DNA from: a virus
Reading direction: 5' to 3' (one strand)
Virus record (IMG/VR): IMGVR_UViG_3300044712_001809
Span: 1 to 24,577 of that record
Length of the DNA stretch: 24,577 nt
Positions 2,376 through 15,970 of the stretch are shown one piece after another. The notes beneath the pieces are model-generated. The model ran no database searches. It saw only the letters and a list, made by a program, of their open reading frames with translations, and was not told the origin of the DNA. Position 1 is the first letter of the stretch, and each line of letters opens with the position of its first letter. A program made the translations under genes and the position numbers.

Positions 2376-3152
2376 TTACTCCTTGATACGCTGGGCCAGG
2401 CGCTTGCGGGCCTGGTCGAGCTCGAATTTGACCCGGCGGGCATCCGTCTGGGTCCGAGGCGCGGCGCTCAGAATTGTGTGGAGCGAGGAACGAACGTCGT
2501 CCAATCCCGAGAACATCTCAAGGAGTTCCGATAATTCTTGCCGCTTGACTTCATTCAGCGGGCGGTTATCTGCCAGCCCGCGAATTTCATCCATCAGTTG
2601 TTGCAGTCCCTTCCCATACATTTCCACTTTGGCCGCCAGGGTCATCTCAGGACTGGAAAGATAAGACAGGAAGTCTTTGACGCCGGTCACGACCGCTTCT
2701 TCATTCATCGGCATAGCCACGAGCGAGGATTCGTACAGCGTGACTTCGTTCAACTCGCGGACATTTTCCTTTTCGTCATAAGTCCAGACGTCCGTGTGGT
2801 AGCCCATTGAGAAGCTGTCCAGGGCCCCGTCTTTCAGCAGCTCGTGGGTGTCTTCGCCCAGGCGGGTCTTGGAGATGCGGAACTTTCCAAACAGCCCTTT
2901 GGAATCCTGGTGTAGCTTGAGCGGCGCGCCCAGGATCTGGCGCGGGTCGTGATCGCGCAGGAAACGCACCTTTGGCCCTTCCTTGAGGGTCTTGGTGAAG
3001 GCGCCTGGGCGAACGATATCGCGCCCGAGGTCCACATTGTCAAAGGTGGACACATACCCGGATACCTCCCACTCATCGCCGGCAGCCTTAAACTCGGCGA
3101 TCTGGATCGGGAAACTATACAGCGTGTTGGAATTGACGGTTTTGGGTGCCAT
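2376..3152 (-). CDS. Prohead (maturation) protease, HK97/U35 family
   Basis: This 258-aa serine protease would cleave the scaffolding domain of the capsid protein during head maturation. Landmarks are FPIQIAEFKAAGDEWEVSGYVSTFDNVDLGRDIVRPGAF (split over residues 14-52), a catalytic His candidate at 68 in RDHD, a catalytic Ser at 115 in DSFSMGY, and YESSLVAMPMNEEA at 140-153. All are conserved positions of the family. The C-terminal ~90 residues are helical and charged and may act as a scaffold. ATG 3152 was chosen for its AGAGG site; it overlaps the end of the glycosyltransferase gene by 38 bases. The capsid gene begins 4 bases after its stop, so the two are surely cotranscribed. Confidence 0.92.
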   Translation of the reverse strand: MAPKTVNSNTLYSFPIQIAEFKAAGDEWEVSGYVSTFDNVDLGRDIVRPGAFTKTLKEGPKVRFLRDHDPRQILGAPLKLHQDSKGLFGKFRISKTRLGEDTHELLKDGALDSFSMGYHTDVWTYDEKENVRELNEVTLYESSLVAMPMNEEAVVTGVKDFLSYLSSPEMTLAAKVEMYGKGLQQLMDEIRGLADNRPLNEVKRQELSELLEMFSGLDDVRSSLHTILSAAPRTQTDARRVKFELDQARKRLAQRIKE

Positions 3153-4245
3153 AGGCTGCCTCTTGATTTGGAATAGATCCGGGAGCATCCCCCCGGTAAT
3201 GAGCGGTAATTTCGTCCCAGGCCTCGACCCAGCGCCAGGCCTGGCGGGTGAGGGAGTGTTCGCGACGGACCTTTGCCAGCAGGCGCTTGCTCAGGTCACG
3301 GCGCAGGGTATAGCTTTCGACCAGCAGCGAGAGATAACCTTCCCACTCGTCCACGCTGGTCGCGAGATAGCCGTTCACGGTGGGGTCGATCAACTGGCTA
3401 TAAACCGTGGGGCTCGCCACAACCGCCGCGCCGGAAGCGGCATATTCCATCGCCTTGATGTAGGTTTTGGCCCGGTTGAATTTCGTATCCCCCAGCGGAC
3501 AGCAGCCGATATCGATGTTGACCAACCCGGCCGGATACTGGTCGATCGGCATCCAGTCCAGCATGGCGATGCGCTCGTTAGGAACTAGGTCATATAAAAC
3601 TTTGGCGTGATGGCCCTGGATGACGAAGGTCACCTGCGGATAGCGTTTGGCAATCCGTGCCCAGGCCCGCGCCATGATTTCGACGTCCGCGTCGGGGCGA
3701 TTTCCGCCGGCCCAGCCGATGGTGAGACCTGGCACCTGGCGCTGTGCCGCTTTCTGGACCTTATGGAACCAGGTCAGGTCAATGAAATTGGGCACGACCT
3801 TGACCGGCTGGTCGGTGTATTCGCGCACCATCGTTGCCAGGCGCTGGCCAGAGACCGTCACGCCGTCGCAGGAGCGCAGCGCGTGCAGGATGCAGCTCTG
3901 GCGCTCTTTGGCTTCCGCCGGGCTCTTGCCATGCTGGACGACCAGCCGCCGGACAAAATCCTCACTGAACAGGTCGTCGTCTACCTCGTAGATCACGGCG
4001 AGGCCGGCCCGGTGAAGGGCCTTGAACCACTGATCAGCTTTGGCGCGCTCTTCGATGGGCCAGTGCAGGCGGGGCAGGATCACGGCGTCAAACTGGTGGA
4101 CGATTTGCGCGAGCCGGTTATCCTCGCGCATGCCCCACTCGATGCCGCGGTAGCCCTGGCGCTGCAGCTCGGTGAAGGGGAGTGCAATTCTCCAGAGGAA
4201 GCATCCATCTTGTTCGCCCACAAGTGCGAGAACTTTAGCGTGCAT
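3115..4245 (-). CDS. GT4-like (GT-B fold) glycosyltransferase
   Basis: This 376-aa protein resembles GT-B family 4 transferases that move a sugar from an activated donor to an acceptor. The N-terminal half has MHAKVLALVGEQDGCFLWRI, a segment FDAVILPRL and IYEVDDDLF, then VTVSGQRLATMV and VKVVPNFIDL. The C-terminal donor domain starts at LTIGWAGGN and contains KTYIKAMEYAASGAAVVASP, the E-containing motif (x7-E-like) of the family. The start at ATG 4245 has GAGAGGG close upstream; the longer in-frame start would run into the divergent HNH gene. It lies immediately before the prohead protease gene, so virion or capsid glycosylation is a reasonable guess. A near-copy of its first codons sits 700 bases upstream behind the HNH gene (see the relic at 4922-4951). 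Confidence 0.85.
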   Translation of the reverse strand: MHAKVLALVGEQDGCFLWRIALPFTELQRQGYRGIEWGMREDNRLAQIVHQFDAVILPRLHWPIEERAKADQWFKALHRAGLAVIYEVDDDLFSEDFVRRLVVQHGKSPAEAKERQSCILHALRSCDGVTVSGQRLATMVREYTDQPVKVVPNFIDLTWFHKVQKAAQRQVPGLTIGWAGGNRPDADVEIMARAWARIAKRYPQVTFVIQGHHAKVLYDLVPNERIAMLDWMPIDQYPAGLVNIDIGCCPLGDTKFNRAKTYIKAMEYAASGAAVVASPTVYSQLIDPTVNGYLATSVDEWEGYLSLLVESYTLRRDLSKRLLAKVRREHSLTRQAWRWVEAWDEITAHYRGDAPGSIPNQEAAYGTQNRQFQHAV

Positions 4246-4267
4246 ATTCCCTCTCGATGGTTGAGGG

Positions 4268-4276
4268 TGGTATAAT
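4268..4276 (+). promoter_or_regulatory. Extended -10 promoter for the first HNH gene
   Basis: TGG followed by TATAAT (4271-4276) forms an extended -10 element. No good -35 is seen at 16-18 bases upstream. It lies 31 bases before the HNH start and only 23 bases upstream of the divergent glycosyltransferase ATG, so the HNH gene appears to carry its own promoter. Confidence 0.5.
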
Positions 4277-4306
4277 GCTATTACTATCGACATGGGGAGA
4301 CGCATC

Positions 4307-4930
4307 ATGCCACAAAAGAAAACTATTCAACGAACATGCGGAATTTGCGGGAAATTTTTCTTTACCTCTCAATACGAGATTGACAAGGGGCGAGGTAAAT
4401 ATTGCTCGAAAACATGTCGCAATGCTGGGAATAAACGCCCTGCAGAAGCCCGCTTTTGGAACAAGGTTGATAAAACCAATGAAACCGGTTGTTGGATTTG
4501 GATCGGTGCAAAAAGACACGCTCTTGGTTATGGCGGCTTTTACTTCAACGGTCGCTGGTCTCACGCTCATCGGGTTTCTTACGAAATTGCCAACGGGCCA
4601 ATACCAGAGGGCGAAGAAATTCTTCACCTTTGTGACAATCCAGCGTGTGTTAACCCGGCGCATCTTGTGGCTGGAACACACGCGGAAAATATGGCTGATG
4701 CCCACAAAAAAGGCCGTATAGTAGGCGGTTTTTATAATATTCTTGAAGGAAATCGCCCATTGGGAGAGAAGCACGGCCAGTCTAAATTGACAGATGATGA
4801 TGTGCGTGAGATAAGACGAAAATACGAAGTTGAAGGTATCAAAGTCACTGAGTTGGCCAGACAGTATGAAATGACCCATGCTCAAATCGGCGCGATTGCC
4901 AGAAGAAAAGCATGGACTCATATCACTTAG
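4307..4930 (+). CDS. HNH homing-type endonuclease with zinc finger and C-terminal HTH
   Basis: This 207-aa protein has three parts. Residues ~8-38 form a treble-clef-like zinc finger (CGIC and YCSKTC). The centre is an HNH_3 nuclease ([35 protein letters not shown], then THAENMADA). The C-terminus is a resolvase-like HTH ([40 protein letters not shown]). Such free-standing nucleases cut phage DNA at a site and are copied by repair. ATG 4307 was chosen over ATG 4292 because GGGGAGA precedes it by 6 bases. It is antisense to the late operon, AT-richer than its neighbours and has its own -10 element, all signs of a mobile gene. It is related to the second HNH gene in the core only. Confidence 0.9.
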
Positions 4931-4951
4931 TGCCAACACCCGAGCATTCAT
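4922..4951 (-). pseudogene. Orphan glycosyltransferase start behind the HNH gene (insertion scar)
   Basis: On the minus strand a strong GGAGG and an ATG at 4951 are followed by codons reading [10 protein letters not shown]. The intact glycosyltransferase 700 bases downstream begins MHAKVLALVG, identical or similar at M, A, R/K, V, L, A, L. Only about seven codons lie outside the HNH gene; the rest overlap its last codons. The simplest reading is that the HNH gene entered the 5' end of a glycosyltransferase gene and that a new start was supplied on the other side. An alternative is loss of most of a tandem second glycosyltransferase gene. Confidence 0.5.
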
Positions 4952-4959
4952 AAGCCTCC

Positions 4960-5020
4960 ATCGGAAAACAAAAAAGGCGGCGTGTCACCCCTGATTTCTC
5001 AGAGATCACACGCCGCCTTT
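4960..5020 (-). terminator. Intrinsic terminator in leader of the capsid operon (also ends HNH gene)
   Basis: A 13-bp perfect stem (4973-4985 with 5008-5020, AAAGGCGGCGTGT type) encloses 22 bases that contain a smaller stem. On the minus strand the stem is followed directly by TTTTTTGTTTTCC, a canonical U-tract. On the plus strand only short T-runs follow, so it is a weaker terminator for the first HNH gene. In the minus direction it lies between a strong promoter (5111-5138) and the ribosome binding site at 4951-4959, which is the position of an attenuator. Confidence 0.8.
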
Positions 5021-5110
5021 ACATGCCTTTTGCGTCTCGCCCGTTTCCCTTTTCGCCCGCGCTCACCGCGCCTATGGGGTAGCCTGGAATTGGGCTATTT
5101 GATTAAAATT

Positions 5111-5138
5111 ATTATAGTCCAAATAGACTTTCAGTCAA
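5111..5138 (-). promoter_or_regulatory. Strong sigma70-type promoter toward the capsid operon (leader 2)
   Basis: On the minus strand TTGACT (5138-5133), a 16-base spacer and TATAAT (5116-5111) give a near-consensus promoter with a start point near 5104. The transcript leader (about 5104 to 4952) can form TAGCC/GGCTA and GCGC/GCGC hairpins, has a purine-rich stretch with two GGGCGA copies, and then meets the terminator at 4960-5020. Its first 25 bases from the -10 box match leader 1 (13172) at 18 positions. Confidence 0.7.
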
Positions 5139-5160: not shown

Positions 5161-5274
5161 TGTCTAGGGAAGTTTGGCAGTTTTTATTTGTCAGTAGAGG
5201 TCCGCTATTTTGTGGTTTAACTGCCCTTCCCTAGACAAGAAGCGCAAAGCCATAAGATAGCGGGCCTCTACTGA
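5161..5274 (+). ncRNA. Candidate structured leader RNA: interleaved A-B-A'-B' inverted repeats
   Basis: Two long inverted repeats are interleaved. Repeat A pairs 5161-5172 with 5226-5237 (12 bp, TGTCTAGGGAAG) and, after a 3-base bulge, 5176-5182 with 5219-5225 (7 bp). Repeat B pairs 5191-5208 with 5257-5274 (18 bp, with one G-U pair). B's first arm lies in the loop of A and its second arm lies outside. Both cannot easily form together, because the stems are too long for the 8-10 base linkers. The structure is therefore either a two-state RNA or a DNA cruciform element. It fills the space between the HNH promoter and the HNH ribosome binding site (AAGGA near 5277). I know no named RNA family with this layout. 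Confidence 0.55.
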
Positions 5275-5289
5275 TTAAGGAAAAACAAT

Positions 5290-5757
5290 ATGGATACACC
5301 ATCCAATCAAAAGATTTTCAAAACACCAGGTGAAATTTTAGAAATTTATAACTCTGGATATAGTCTCAAAAAAATCGGGGAAATGTTTGGCGTAAGCCAG
5401 GAAAGAATTCGGCAATTACTCAATAAGACAAAGGAATACGTTAGTCATCCTACATACAGACCAAGTATTGTCCGATTTTGGTCTAAAGTAGAAAAATCCG
5501 ATAATTGCTGGATTTGGATTGGGGCCAAAACTCCAGAAGGATACGGAAGAATGCGCTGGATGAAAGGATATGAATACGCCCACAGAATTTCGTGGGTTAT
5601 TCAAAACGGAACTATAGCAGACGATTTATGTGTCTGCCATAGTTGCGATAACCCTTCATGTGTTCGACCAGATCATTTATTTATCGGCACGATTGCTGAT
5701 AACATGCACGATAGAGATACTAAGGGTCGAGGAAGAAAACCAAAAGTAAACAATTAA
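5290..5757 (+). CDS. HNH homing-type endonuclease with N-terminal HTH
   Basis: This 155-aa protein starts with a sigma-region-4-like helix-turn-helix (residues ~12-45, LEIYNSGYSLKKIGEMFGVS then QERIRQLL). The HNH_3 nuclease core follows ([40 protein letters not shown], then ADNMHDRDTKGR). The core is clearly homologous to that of the first HNH gene, but the DNA-binding attachments differ, so the two would recognise different sites. AAGGA lies 9 bases before the ATG. The gene is strongly AT-rich against its surroundings, is antisense to the late operon, and ends one base before the methyltransferase stop, which suggests a recent, precise insertion between genes. Confidence 0.9.
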   Translation: MDTPSNQKIFKTPGEILEIYNSGYSLKKIGEMFGVSQERIRQLLNKTKEYVSHPTYRPSIVRFWSKVEKSDNCWIWIGAKTPEGYGRMRWMKGYEYAHRISWVIQNGTIADDLCVCHSCDNPSCVRPDHLFIGTIADNMHDRDTKGRGRKPKVNN

Positions 5758-7579: not shown

Positions 7580-8257
7580 TTACCTCTTGGCGATATACGC
7601 CAGCTTCTCTGCGGCGCGCGGTGTGCGCGGTTTGCTGGTAGGTCGCTGCTCGCACTGGCAGTGCCAGCCTTCGCACTCCAGGCGTTTGTTAGGCGGGTTC
7701 TGGGGACGCAGTCCCGATCGCTCCCACTCATATCCGTAAGCCACGATCCCATTCAGAGCCTGGCAGGTCGAGCAGGATTCTTCAGTCGGTCCTACCACCC
7801 ATTCAAACTTGAGCTTCGAGCCAAACAGCATCCGGGCCTGGTTGCGCACGTCGTTATAGCGATTGGCCCAGACATCGCAGCGCGTCCCGTATTTCGCCTC
7901 GAACTGCGCGCTGGGCAGCTTGTTGACCCGGTCCACCTGGATCTCGTCGGCGATGCCGCGGGCGTAATTGATCTCGTTGAGGATGACCGTGCGCAGGACG
8001 TTCAGATCCTCGTTGGTCATCTCGTCCGGATCGACATTCACGTCTTTCGCGCCCTTGTTCCAGGCCTCGGTCAGCTGCTGATCGATCGAGCGCGAAAAGG
8101 TGGCCATGAAGGCGCCATCGTTGCCGCTCTCAAACATGCGGACCATCGCTCCCCACAACCGTGCCCGATATTGGGCATAGGTTTTCCGCTCCAGATAGGC
8201 CTCGATCGCCGGGGCGGCCTGGGCGAGCAGATCGTACAACCGGCGCAGCTCAGACAT
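7580..8257 (-). CDS. Minor head/head morphogenesis protein (SPP1 gp7/Mu F-like)
   Basis: The 225-aa protein starts at ATG 8257 inside the end of the small upstream gene. The N-terminal two thirds are helical (ELRRLYDLLAQAAPAIEAYL and SRSIDQQLTEAWNKGAKDV). The C-terminus carries the family signature: WVVGPTEESCSTCQALNG, then VAYGYEWERSGLRPQNPPN and LECEGWHCQCEQR, a Cys-rich segment seen in the Mu F-like domain. Such proteins bind the portal and enter the head in small numbers, where they affect DNA packaging and ejection. The position right after the portal gene is standard. About 40 basic residues follow the Cys-rich end. Confidence 0.85.
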   Translation of the reverse strand: MSELRRLYDLLAQAAPAIEAYLERKTYAQYRARLWGAMVRMFESGNDGAFMATFSRSIDQQLTEAWNKGAKDVNVDPDEMTNEDLNVLRTVILNEINYARGIADEIQVDRVNKLPSAQFEAKYGTRCDVWANRYNDVRNQARMLFGSKLKFEWVVGPTEESCSTCQALNGIVAYGYEWERSGLRPQNPPNKRLECEGWHCQCEQRPTSKPRTPRAAEKLAYIAKR

Positions 8258-12107: not shown

Positions 12108-12543
12108 ATGATGGAGCCGGACTTTTAGGCGCCAGCTTCAGCAGCTCGTTCCGGATCTCAGACACCAGCGCCTTGATCTCTTTGGCCTGCAGGTCGTGGT
12201 TGGCATAATTGAGCAGCAGGGCGTCCAGGGCTTTGGTGATCCGATCGGAGACCCCTCTCATGTCATCGATATCGCTCTTGGTGCCTTCGGTAATGGCCAG
12301 GTAAAACTCGCGCATGAGCCGGTCGCGCTCGTTTTGTGCGGTTTCATGCTTCGCGCTCTGTTCTTCTTTCCACTTGCGATCAGCAGCCGCTTCCTTCTTG
12401 TAATCATTCCAAAACCAGCGAACGGCCAGACCCACCAGCACGAAACAGGCAACGATCAGGAACACGACTGGGAATTCGTTCCAGGCTTTGTTAGAGAATA
12501 ACCAGGTCCAGAAATCAGGGGGAGGGGCGACTTCGGGCATCAT
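12106..12543 (-). CDS. Membrane-anchored helical protein
   Basis: The 145-aa protein starts by ATGA overlap with the preceding gene. Residues ~20-45 form one membrane segment (FPVVFLIVACFVLVGLAVRW). The rest is a charged coiled coil (NDYKKEAAADRKWKEEQSAK, ETAQNERDRLMREFYLAI) ending in an amphipathic helix (KEIKALVSEIRNELLKL) and a Pro/Ser tail. The topology (short N-terminal part, one TM, long helical domain) resembles spanin-like or membrane-tethered assembly factors, but no conserved motif proves it. Its partner is probably the adjacent multi-TM protein. Being ahead of the terminase genes, it is expressed at the head of the late operon. Confidence 0.75.
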   Translation of the reverse strand: MMPEVAPPPDFWTWLFSNKAWNEFPVVFLIVACFVLVGLAVRWFWNDYKKEAAADRKWKEEQSAKHETAQNERDRLMREFYLAITEGTKSDIDDMRGVSDRITKALDALLLNYANHDLQAKEIKALVSEIRNELLKLAPKSPAPS

Positions 12544-13055
12544 GCGGTGGCTTCCGGCTTTGGCTTCAGAATCCGGTCGAAGATCAGGTCGTGCAGGTAG
12601 TTCGAGCCCTTGCCGATCGCCAGCCCGGTCAGGATCACCCCGAACATCGTCACCGGGATAGGCTGCTTGAAATACATGCCCACCAAATAGATCACATCGA
12701 ATTGGTAGATATTCGAGCCCAGCACCCCAATCCCCAGGGCGATGTACATCTGGATCCATTTGAACCGTGATAGTGTTGGAATGTTGTCAAATAATGGGGC
12801 AAAGAAAAATTCTACGGTGCTTTCTACGATGAATGCAATTACCAGGATGATGGCCAGGATCGCCAATGGGTCCAGGATAACCAGTTCTGACTGAGGTAGA
12901 CTGTGGAGCTGGACGGCCGGCAGAAACACCACCGATCTGGCCGTGGGGGATGCCATCGCGTTGATGGGTCTGGCCGTGGTAAGGATCAGGACGGCCGTTA
13001 AGACCAGTAGAACAATGATGAAGAAAGTCAGTAACCTTACGAAGTTGAATTTCAT
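12540..13055 (-). CDS. Holin-like multi-spanning membrane protein
   Basis: The 171-aa protein has an N-terminal hydrophobic segment or signal (LLTFFIIVLLVLTAVLIL), a ~45-residue outer loop, then three more membrane segments: LAILAIILVIAFIVESTVEF, WIQMYIALGIGVLGSNIYQF, and VTMFGVILTGLAIGKGSNYLH followed by a basic tail. The GxGKGSNYLHDLI motif recurs in small phage membrane proteins often guessed to be holins. ATG 13055 has GGAGG 8 bases upstream. It is the first gene after a strong promoter and terminator leader, so its expression is probably set by read-through of that terminator. No lysin gene is seen in the window, so the holin role is not proven. Confidence 0.75.
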   Translation of the reverse strand: MKFNFVRLLTFFIIVLLVLTAVLILTTARPINAMASPTARSVVFLPAVQLHSLPQSELVILDPLAILAIILVIAFIVESTVEFFFAPLFDNIPTLSRFKWIQMYIALGIGVLGSNIYQFDVIYLVGMYFKQPIPVTMFGVILTGLAIGKGSNYLHDLIFDRILKPKPEATA

Positions 13056-13069
13056 AACCCCCACCTCCA

Positions 13070-13127
13070 GGGGAAAACAAAAAGCGCCTCGGCAGCATGA
13101 TCCGTCAGATCAGGTACCGAGGCGCTT
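13070..13127 (-). terminator. Intrinsic terminator in the leader of the late operon (leader 1)
   Basis: An 11-bp perfect stem (13082-13092 with 13117-13127, AAGCGCCTCGG type) encloses 24 bases with an inner TGATC/GATCA stem. On the minus strand it is followed by TTTTTGTTTTCC, then two bases and TGGAGG, the ribosome binding site of the holin-like gene. It can end the integrase transcript and also attenuate the promoter at 13172-13200. Upstream in the leader, GCGCT (within 13152-13157) can pair with AGCGC of the terminator's first arm, a possible antiterminator. Confidence 0.8.
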
Positions 13128-13137
13128 ATCTCTCTTC

Positions 13138-13151
13138 GCCGGTTGCCCGGC
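13138..13151 (-). other. Leader hairpin with GNRA tetraloop
   Basis: On the minus strand GCCGG, GCAA, CCGGC form a 5-bp stem closed by a GNRA tetraloop. It lies between the promoter start point (about 13165) and the terminator of leader 1, where a regulator or RNA polymerase could sense it. Confidence 0.55.
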
Positions 13152-13171
13152 AGCGCTATTGAACTATGATC

Positions 13172-13200
13172 ATTATACGCACATTAGAGGGCGGGTACAA
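13172..13200 (-). promoter_or_regulatory. Late promoter toward holin-like gene and terminase (leader 1)
   Basis: On the minus strand TTGTAC (13200-13195), a 17-base spacer and a perfect TATAAT (13177-13172) predict a start near 13165. The leader to the first ATG is about 110 bases and contains a GNRA hairpin and a strong terminator. It resembles leader 2 (5111-5138) in sequence after the -10 box and around the U-tract and ribosome binding site. Confidence 0.65.
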
Positions 13201-13241: not shown

Positions 13242-13364
13242 TTATTTTGCCACCAGGATCGCCATGCTCACCAGCAGACAGATCATCAAGATGGCCATTA
13301 ACAAAATGATCAGCGTGCGCGGTCCGGGCCTCTTTCGCTTTGGGACGATCCGAAACTCTGCCAT
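13242..13364 (-). CDS. 40-aa single-TM peptide downstream of integrase
   Basis: A short frame starts MAEFRIVPKRKRPGPR and continues with the hydrophobic run TLIILLMAILMICLLVSMAI, ending in LVAK. A basic N-terminus before one membrane helix predicts an inner-membrane peptide with its N-terminus inside. It starts 7 bases after the integrase stop with no Shine-Dalgarno; instead a TATAAT (overlapping the integrase stop) lies only 6 bases before the ATG, as in leaderless genes. The late promoter follows its stop. Confidence 0.55.
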   Translation of the reverse strand: MAEFRIVPKRKRPGPRTLIILLMAILMICLLVSMAILVAK

Positions 13365-13371
13365 TGCGTGA

Positions 13372-14382: not shown

Positions 14383-14500
14383 CAGGTTAGTCGTTCTGTA
14401 GAGCGGGCGACCGGATTCGGACCGGCGAATAGTAGCTTGGAAGGCTACAAGAATGATCCGATTTACTCTCGCACGCTAACCTACTCGATTGTTCAGGTTA
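14383..14500 (-). other. Candidate attP region with flanking repeats
   Basis: The tRNA-like segment is flanked by an inverted pair AGGTTAG (14384-14390) and CTAACCT (14476-14482), and CAGGTTA occurs directly at 14383-14389 and 14494-14500. Such short repeats around a tRNA 3' half beside an integrase start are typical of integrase arm or core sites. The crossover point cannot be fixed without the host site. Confidence 0.45.
14402..14476 (-). tRNA. Degenerate tRNA-Gly(UCC)-like sequence (attP core candidate)
   Basis: Read on the minus strand, 75 bases fold as a tRNA. The anticodon arm is perfect (GTAGC, CTTCCAA, GCTAC; anticodon TCC at 14441-14439). The variable loop is 5 bases, the T-arm pairs GCCGG with CCGGT around TCCGAAT (one change from TTCGAAT), and the acceptor strand is CGCCCGC. 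The 5' half is poor: one acceptor mismatch, a one-base linker without U8, and a weak D-stem. No CCA is encoded. A good 3' half and decayed 5' half is what an attP copied from a host tRNA-Gly gene looks like; it may not be a working tRNA. Confidence 0.5.
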
Positions 14501-15942: not shown

Positions 15943-15970
15943 TTGACATCCATCAATTTATTGATATAAT
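15943..15970 (+). promoter_or_regulatory. Early rightward promoter
   Basis: A perfect TTGACA (15943-15948), a 16-base spacer and a perfect TATAAT (15965-15970) predict a start near 15977, 36 bases before the first early ATG. An operator palindrome fills the spacer, so repressor binding would block polymerase directly. Confidence 0.85.
15952..15965. promoter_or_regulatory. Operator O1 candidate
   Basis: ATCAAT, TT, ATTGAT is a perfect 6-bp dyad in the spacer of the early promoter. The half-site recurs at O2. The probable ligand is the divergent XRE repressor. Confidence 0.65.

Follow-up and report, generated by a model that had tools for sequence, protein, structure and literature searches.

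Detailed knowledge of how antitermination controls late genes comes from a few cultured models, most of them proteobacterial. In the Q systems of phages lambda, 21 and 82, a sigma70 promoter, a short leader and an intrinsic terminator stand before the late genes (pR' to tR'), and the initial transcribed region holds a -10-like pause sequence (PMC6606751). The DNA site of the regulator is found between the -35 and -10 elements for the Q proteins of lambda and 21, and likewise for AlpA and GafZ (PMC6606751, PMC7969949, PMC11150451). In Pseudomonas aeruginosa, AlpA acts at two target promoters, and at each of them a terminator precedes the first gene; the terminator tB begins 54 nt downstream of the start site (PMC7969949). 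GafZ, which is unrelated to Q, antiterminates the phage-type structural cluster of the Caulobacter gene transfer agent (PMC11150451). The put RNA of HK022, a promoter-proximal structured RNA of ~70 nt with two stem-loops, suppresses terminators in the early genes (PMC9378689), and the ESAS/SAS elements of cluster K mycobacteriophages, which are repeated within one genome, place an inverted repeat directly upstream of a conserved, RBS-containing motif (PMC3203893).

We analysed a stretch of 24,577 bases (the window), which is the entire IMG/VR record IMGVR_UViG_3300044712_001809 and carries no completeness flag. Judged on its gene content (integrase, repressor, RecT, helicase loader, large terminase, portal, S78 protease and HK97-type capsid), the phage is temperate and siphovirus-like, and its late genes run on the minus strand. 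A first-pass annotation had described two regions of this strand with the same order of promoter, leader, terminator hairpin, RBS and start codon, and a base-by-base check at 13200-13055 (module 1) and 5138-4951 (module 2) found both in that order. As in the Q systems, a sigma70-type promoter, a short leader and an intrinsic terminator precede the late genes. Unlike in those systems, there are two such units in the genome and the terminator abuts the RBS. The layout resembles that of AlpA, where one regulator serves two promoters with their terminators, and differs from that of GafZ, where the terminator follows the first gene.

Module 1 begins with a promoter at 13172..13200 (minus strand), with TTGTAC at 13200-13195, a 17-nt spacer and TATAAT at 13177-13172. 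The inferred start is A13165, and the promoter is kept in two close relatives, L009 and L010. The initial-transcribed block TAGTTCAATA, which covers positions -1 to +9 (13157..13166) in a form common with module 2, is followed by a short 5' leader hairpin, GCCGG-GCAA-CCGGC (13138..13151), whose stem is kept in L009 with a GTAG loop. The intrinsic terminator (13079..13127) consists of a hairpin at 13127-13082, with a predicted energy of -30 kcal/mol, and T5 at 13083-13079, and the RBS TGGAGG (13064..13069) leads to an ATG at 13055. The first gene (12540..13055, minus strand) encodes a 171-aa membrane protein that the first-pass annotation had called holin-like and for which a PHROGs search returned no match. 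It is followed by a 144-aa gene with a weak Rz-like spanin match, an HTH (TerS-like) gene, the large terminase and the portal. Module 1 is the head of a lysis/packaging operon.

The promoter of module 2 (5111..5138, minus strand) has TTGACT at 5138-5133, a 16-nt spacer and TATAAT at 5116-5111, matching the consensus at 11 of 12 positions. The description of the promoters as near-consensus holds for module 2 only; the -35 element of module 1 is weak (3/6), so that this promoter is not near-consensus overall and was missed by a simple scan. With an inferred start at A5104, the block at -1 to +9 of module 2 is TAATCAAATA (5096..5105). The terminator (4970..5020) is formed by a hairpin at 5020-4973 with a GAAA loop, predicted at -37/-38 kcal/mol, and T6 at 4975-4970; the RBS TGGAGG lies at 4955..4960 and the ATG at 4951. 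From the inferred start, the RNA runs for 38 nt to the hairpin and ~110 nt to the ATG in module 1, and for 84 nt and ~153 nt in module 2, in line with the leader length of 110-155 given earlier.

The ATG at 4951 now opens a frame (4235..4951, minus strand) in which the glycosyltransferase part is limited to the first codons (MNARVLAL), the remainder being read-through after an insertion. The current glycosyltransferase frame (3115..4239, MHAKVLALVGE...) has its own RBS, AGAGGGA, and is separated from module 2 by an HNH endonuclease gene on the plus strand (4292..4930). This gene is missing at the site in L009 and L010, where the glycosyltransferase starts exactly at the module 2 ATG (ATGAATGCTCGGGTGTTGGCACTGGTGGGCGAG). 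The HNH gene has therefore split the copy in the window, and the proposal that 4951 was the original glycosyltransferase start was correct. The window diverges from the two relatives after GGCACT, into the HNH gene, and with the insertion the glycosyltransferase (start 4239) gained a new RBS and had its first codons recoded. The leader and the first eight codons were left ~0.7 kb upstream (4239-4951). Downstream of the glycosyltransferase lie the S78 prohead protease and then the HK97-type capsid gene. Module 2 stands at the head of the capsid operon, which consists of glycosyltransferase and protease/capsid genes or, in other phages, of the protease-capsid genes directly; each module opens one half of the late region, as had been suggested.

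We then compared the two modules with each other. A recount agreed with the 18 matches in 25 positions reported from the -10 box onwards. The sequence TTTTTGTTTTCCNNTGGAGG, with up to three mismatches allowed, occurs twice in the 24.6 kb, while shuffled sequences gave a mean of 0.02 and never two. Both leaders fold far better than shuffled sequences (z of -5.1 and -3.8), and the T-tracts of both modules are present on the minus strand only, which indicates that the hairpins are directional terminators. The hairpins themselves are unrelated in sequence. This differs from ESAS, which shares a 17-bp repeat and the 13-bp SAS GGGATAGGAGCCC, as the hairpins here differ and end in T-tracts; the SAS motif was not found at the RBS of module 1 or 2. 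The unit from T-tract to RBS, described as identical apart from two variable bases, is so within the window but not across relatives, since module 1 of L009 reads TTTTTATATTTTCCAGGAGG. A scan of the collection found this T-tract/RBS 20-mer in four contigs, namely the two close relatives as well as L005 and L008, which have a different leader. The exact 20-mer was ruled out as a conserved signal on account of its alteration in a relative as close as L009. What sequence comparison shows to be conserved is the layout, together with the block that comes right behind the -10 element.

To determine how far the layout extends, relatives were searched with a strict scan, used since a looser first scan gave mostly coding-region noise. 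It required a hairpin of -16 kcal/mol or lower directly before at least five T, a start codon no more than 45 nt away and, at most 180 nt upstream of the hairpin, a promoter that scored over threshold. In the phage group of the window (0.55 Mb), 14 of 20 pre-start terminators had a strong sigma70-type promoter upstream. The same was true of 9/46 terminators that do not precede starts in the same genomes (Fisher 2e-4) and of 0/17 pre-start terminators in more distant terminase relatives (2.2 Mb; Fisher 6e-6). Without the two L009 copies of the window's modules, the values were 7e-4 and 3e-5, respectively; all are indicative only, as the sequences of the group are related. Relatives do carry the layout, both L009/L010 and the wider group, and its frequency far exceeds chance. 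The module precedes orthologous glycosyltransferases of 59-92% identity in L029, L031 and L038, and by eye in L267, and in other, widely different relatives module 2 stands directly ahead of the protease/capsid genes. As far as the sequences go, the promoter-terminator-start structure is real and lineage-specific, and its layout is conserved.

The first-pass annotation had named relatives lacking hairpins or promoters as evidence against the module. The layout is widely kept, with some exceptions. Module 1 was detected in some relatives and not in several others, and neither module was detected in the stretch covered for L335 and others. In one phage, represented by the same sequence in several contigs (L033-L037, and L032 too), the module 2 terminator has decayed, with a mispaired stem foot and a broken T-run (TTATTGTTT), so that the terminator is dispensable or weakened in that lineage. 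A distant search by BLAST of the module 1 region against phage records gave no match, and a search for the host found TerL relatives in genome contigs at about 50% identity or less. Some variants of the arrangement were also seen. The capsid module lies behind the glycosyltransferase gene, not ahead of it, in L265 and L276, and its leader in L265 (~8040-8235) has a tRNA-like T-arm (GGTTCGAATCC) and matching acceptor-like ends. The genome of a more distant phage (L213/L008) contains three T5-6 GTTTTCC hairpins, at least two of which are preceded by a CAACYACATACCAACCGCTTG-like sequence; promoters are unclear there.

Analysis of 22 module promoters, largely non-redundant and aligned at the -10 element, showed T at -1 in 17 and a purine at +1 in 18. 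Neither criterion had been used in selection, and this start-site signature supports the module promoters as real. An extended -10 was common among them. Both late promoters of one phage share TARTYVAATA at -1 to +9, and AATA occurs at +6 in 6/22 modules, a number reached in 0/3000 shuffles. In L009 the two late promoters agree at 13 of the 18 bases between -6 and +12, which places them at the top of 249 pairs; background promoter pairs have a mean of 5.4 matches over this stretch, and none reaches 12. The block is clear in only 6 of the 22 modules and was chosen after inspection, and enrichment of the motif without regard to position is marginal (P 0.04-0.19). Since it was noticed before testing and is marginal without position, we consider the block a strong lead and not proof.

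The pattern TATAAT-N5-TARTNNAATAG has five distinct occurrences in 4.4 Mb, every one of them at a late promoter. That of L346 was missed by the first scan and found by the pattern alone, and is followed by a hairpin and a weaker T-tract. A scan of the whole collection gave mostly chance matches, and one of the 116 (L450) has promoter, block, terminator and start codon in order. This match, at 7617 on the minus strand of an AT-rich contig, consists of a promoter, TAATTGAATAGC, a hairpin with T8 and a start codon; the contig has no terminase that matches that of the window. Pause elements that resemble a -10 are found in E. coli ~11 bp downstream of the -10 element (PMC7876045), and the TARTYVAATA block begins where these elements sit, although it resembles TATAAT only partly. 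By this analogy, the block could plausibly act as a pause-and-load signal.

The position of the block sets these promoters apart from the known systems. The shared element lies in the same initial transcribed region as the pause sequence of the Q systems, while the binding element that Q uses in the spacer has no shared counterpart here. The -35/-10 spacers of paired late promoters are identical at 7-8 of 20 positions compared to a background of 5.8, and a Q-binding element in the spacer was ruled out as the spacer sequence is at background between late promoters. AlpA and GafZ differ in the same way, with their elements between -35 and -10 and the shared block here at -1 to +9. Searches of 14 records, mostly fragments, found no gene of the Q21 or lambda-Q type (PF06530, PF03589); the search for PF06323 (Q82) lacked a working control. 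No NusG-family protein was found in the 14 records, where the control was found in 11 of the 14 genomes. That no Q21, lambda-Q or NusG genes were found in the 14 records, together with the unshared spacer, argues against a plain lambda-Q reading.

The Q21, lambda-Q and NusG families were also absent from G001, a 41.7-kb contig that is probably complete, as its capsid gene runs over the contig ends. The genes at the end of its early operon were considered as Q candidates and set aside, as they gave no informative PHROGs or Pfam match; a weak RpoY match there was below the cut-off. Clustering of open reading frames over 17 phages for a shared early regulator returned structural genes, judged by position and size, and no recognised regulator. 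A protein factor outside the known families may be at work, since the Q families, AlpA and GafZ are themselves unrelated to one another.

That the RBS follows a strong terminator, itself placed behind a strong promoter, can be understood if termination is conditional, and we hold with moderate confidence that regulated read-through of the terminator, in the manner of lambda Q, AlpA or GafZ, best explains the modules. Each late unit would be served by its own sigma70-type promoter, and the transcript would normally halt in vivo at a terminator, of strength predicted from its sequence, 38-84 nt downstream and before the RBS. Short leader RNA alone would be produced in this off state. In the on state, a putative factor of phage or host origin would render RNA polymerase terminator-resistant soon after initiation, and read-through would express the lysis/packaging genes (module 1) and the capsid genes (module 2) together. 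The block that both promoters share at -1 to +9 would be the likely loading signal, perhaps in combination with the 5' leader hairpin; it would be recognised as DNA, in a complex paused close to the promoter, or in the nascent RNA. In this phage and in many relatives, the terminator between promoter and first gene thus probably keeps the packaging and capsid blocks off until a read-through factor acts.

More tentatively, and as a possibility that we regard as rather doubtful, the modules may represent an undescribed form of processive antitermination, in which a factor or leader RNA loaded via the first nine transcribed bases of each late promoter, and not via a spacer element, would release two terminators at once and turn on the packaging/lysis and capsid operons together in a widespread lineage of uncultivated temperate phages. 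In general terms, the logic of the cultured models appears here in a broad lineage known from environmental DNA alone, twice per genome, with a candidate recognition site in the initial transcribed sequence and with no protein of the Q21, lambda-Q or NusG type found. If regulated read-through holds true, a new antiterminator should be findable, which either the host or the early region of these phages would have to supply. The modules also give a sequence signature with which late promoters can be annotated in phage contigs.

The chief rival is that the hairpin and U-rich tract act as a 5' mRNA stabiliser or translation enhancer, with constitutive partial read-through and no regulated switch. 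Leaders of highly expressed phage genes, such as T7 gene 10, contain elements of this kind, and the capsid genes behind module 2 need high output. The hairpin stands directly ahead of the RBS in all modules, an extended tract, TTTTTTGTTTT, recurs among them, and in L026 the hairpin is almost at the 5' end of the RNA. However, T5-T6 directly abuts a GC-rich stem in most modules, which is the geometry of a strong terminator, and a stabiliser needs no T-tract. The same phage also offers a contrast, as its early promoter (15943..15970, plus strand; 12/12 consensus with an extended -10; first early gene from 16013) has a leader without such a terminator. We consider this explanation unlikely.

A promoter, an RNA of 80-150 nt and a terminator have the look of a small-RNA gene, and each module could encode a short stable phage RNA that lies by chance before late genes transcribed from upstream or by leakage. 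Most leaders have ~10 unpaired bases followed by one or two hairpins, and those of window module 1 and of L336/L339 are structured. In L336/L339, two leader hairpins and the terminator keep 100% of their pairs, three of which differ at both bases and two at one base, and sliding the partners breaks the pairing; with two sequences to compare, the shuffle control (62/500) falls short of being decisive. A covariance model built from them found its own two sequences and a weak match (E 0.74) at the L039 module. The leaders of L012 and L028, which are different phages, have a common hairpin (AGCTGGC...GCCTTGCTCA). With regard to put, which acts without any phage protein and through the zinc-binding domain of the RNA polymerase beta' subunit, two leader stem-loops were seen in L336/L339, and module 1 of the window showed a single short hairpin in its leader and nothing like the put pair. 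Against a small RNA, the leader bodies and hairpins show no sequence relationship, whether modules 1 and 2 or many of the relatives are compared, and it is position and gene context that are conserved; a phage would have two unrelated RNA bodies with only the promoter and the region after the start in common. This makes a small-RNA gene improbable.

A cis-acting attenuator or riboswitch, in which a ligand, peptide or protein would favour an alternative antiterminator hairpin, would have the typical order of leader, terminator and RBS. We found no Rfam riboswitch family in the window, and the leader sequences diverge. Pairing of the leader with the 5' arm of the terminator was no better than in shuffled leaders except in L045b, and was borderline in L026c and L342, which argues against a classical attenuator. 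As no Rfam family was found and only one of the leaders tested had a competing helix, a riboswitch or T-box type of attenuator was rejected as quite improbable. Least credible of all is an ordinary insulator, with a hairpin that ends upstream or antisense transcription and a fortuitous promoter match, for although intergenic terminators are common, the promoters lie on the same strand upstream of the hairpins, bear the start-site signature and are kept at orthologous sites in relatives, with 0/17 such cases in the distant phages.

A second HNH gene lies upstream of module 2 (5290-5757, plus strand). Beside it, the -35 element and spacer of module 2 differ from those of L009, and the -10 element and the block that follows are kept. 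Two long interleaved inverted repeats (5181-5218/5247-5284 and 5161-5182/5219-5237) form a pseudoknot-like element directly upstream of this gene, and a search of Rfam with the element (5161-5284) gave no group I intron match. A reading frame of ~40 codons for a basic/transmembrane product (13242-13365, minus strand), missed by length-limited ORF lists, lies between the integrase and module 1. A tRNA-like sequence is found 80 nt upstream of the integrase start (14402-14476, minus strand). It scored 34.2 bits with the Rfam tRNA model, over the cut-off, while ARAGORN was silent, and it is possibly a phage tRNA remnant or att-related.
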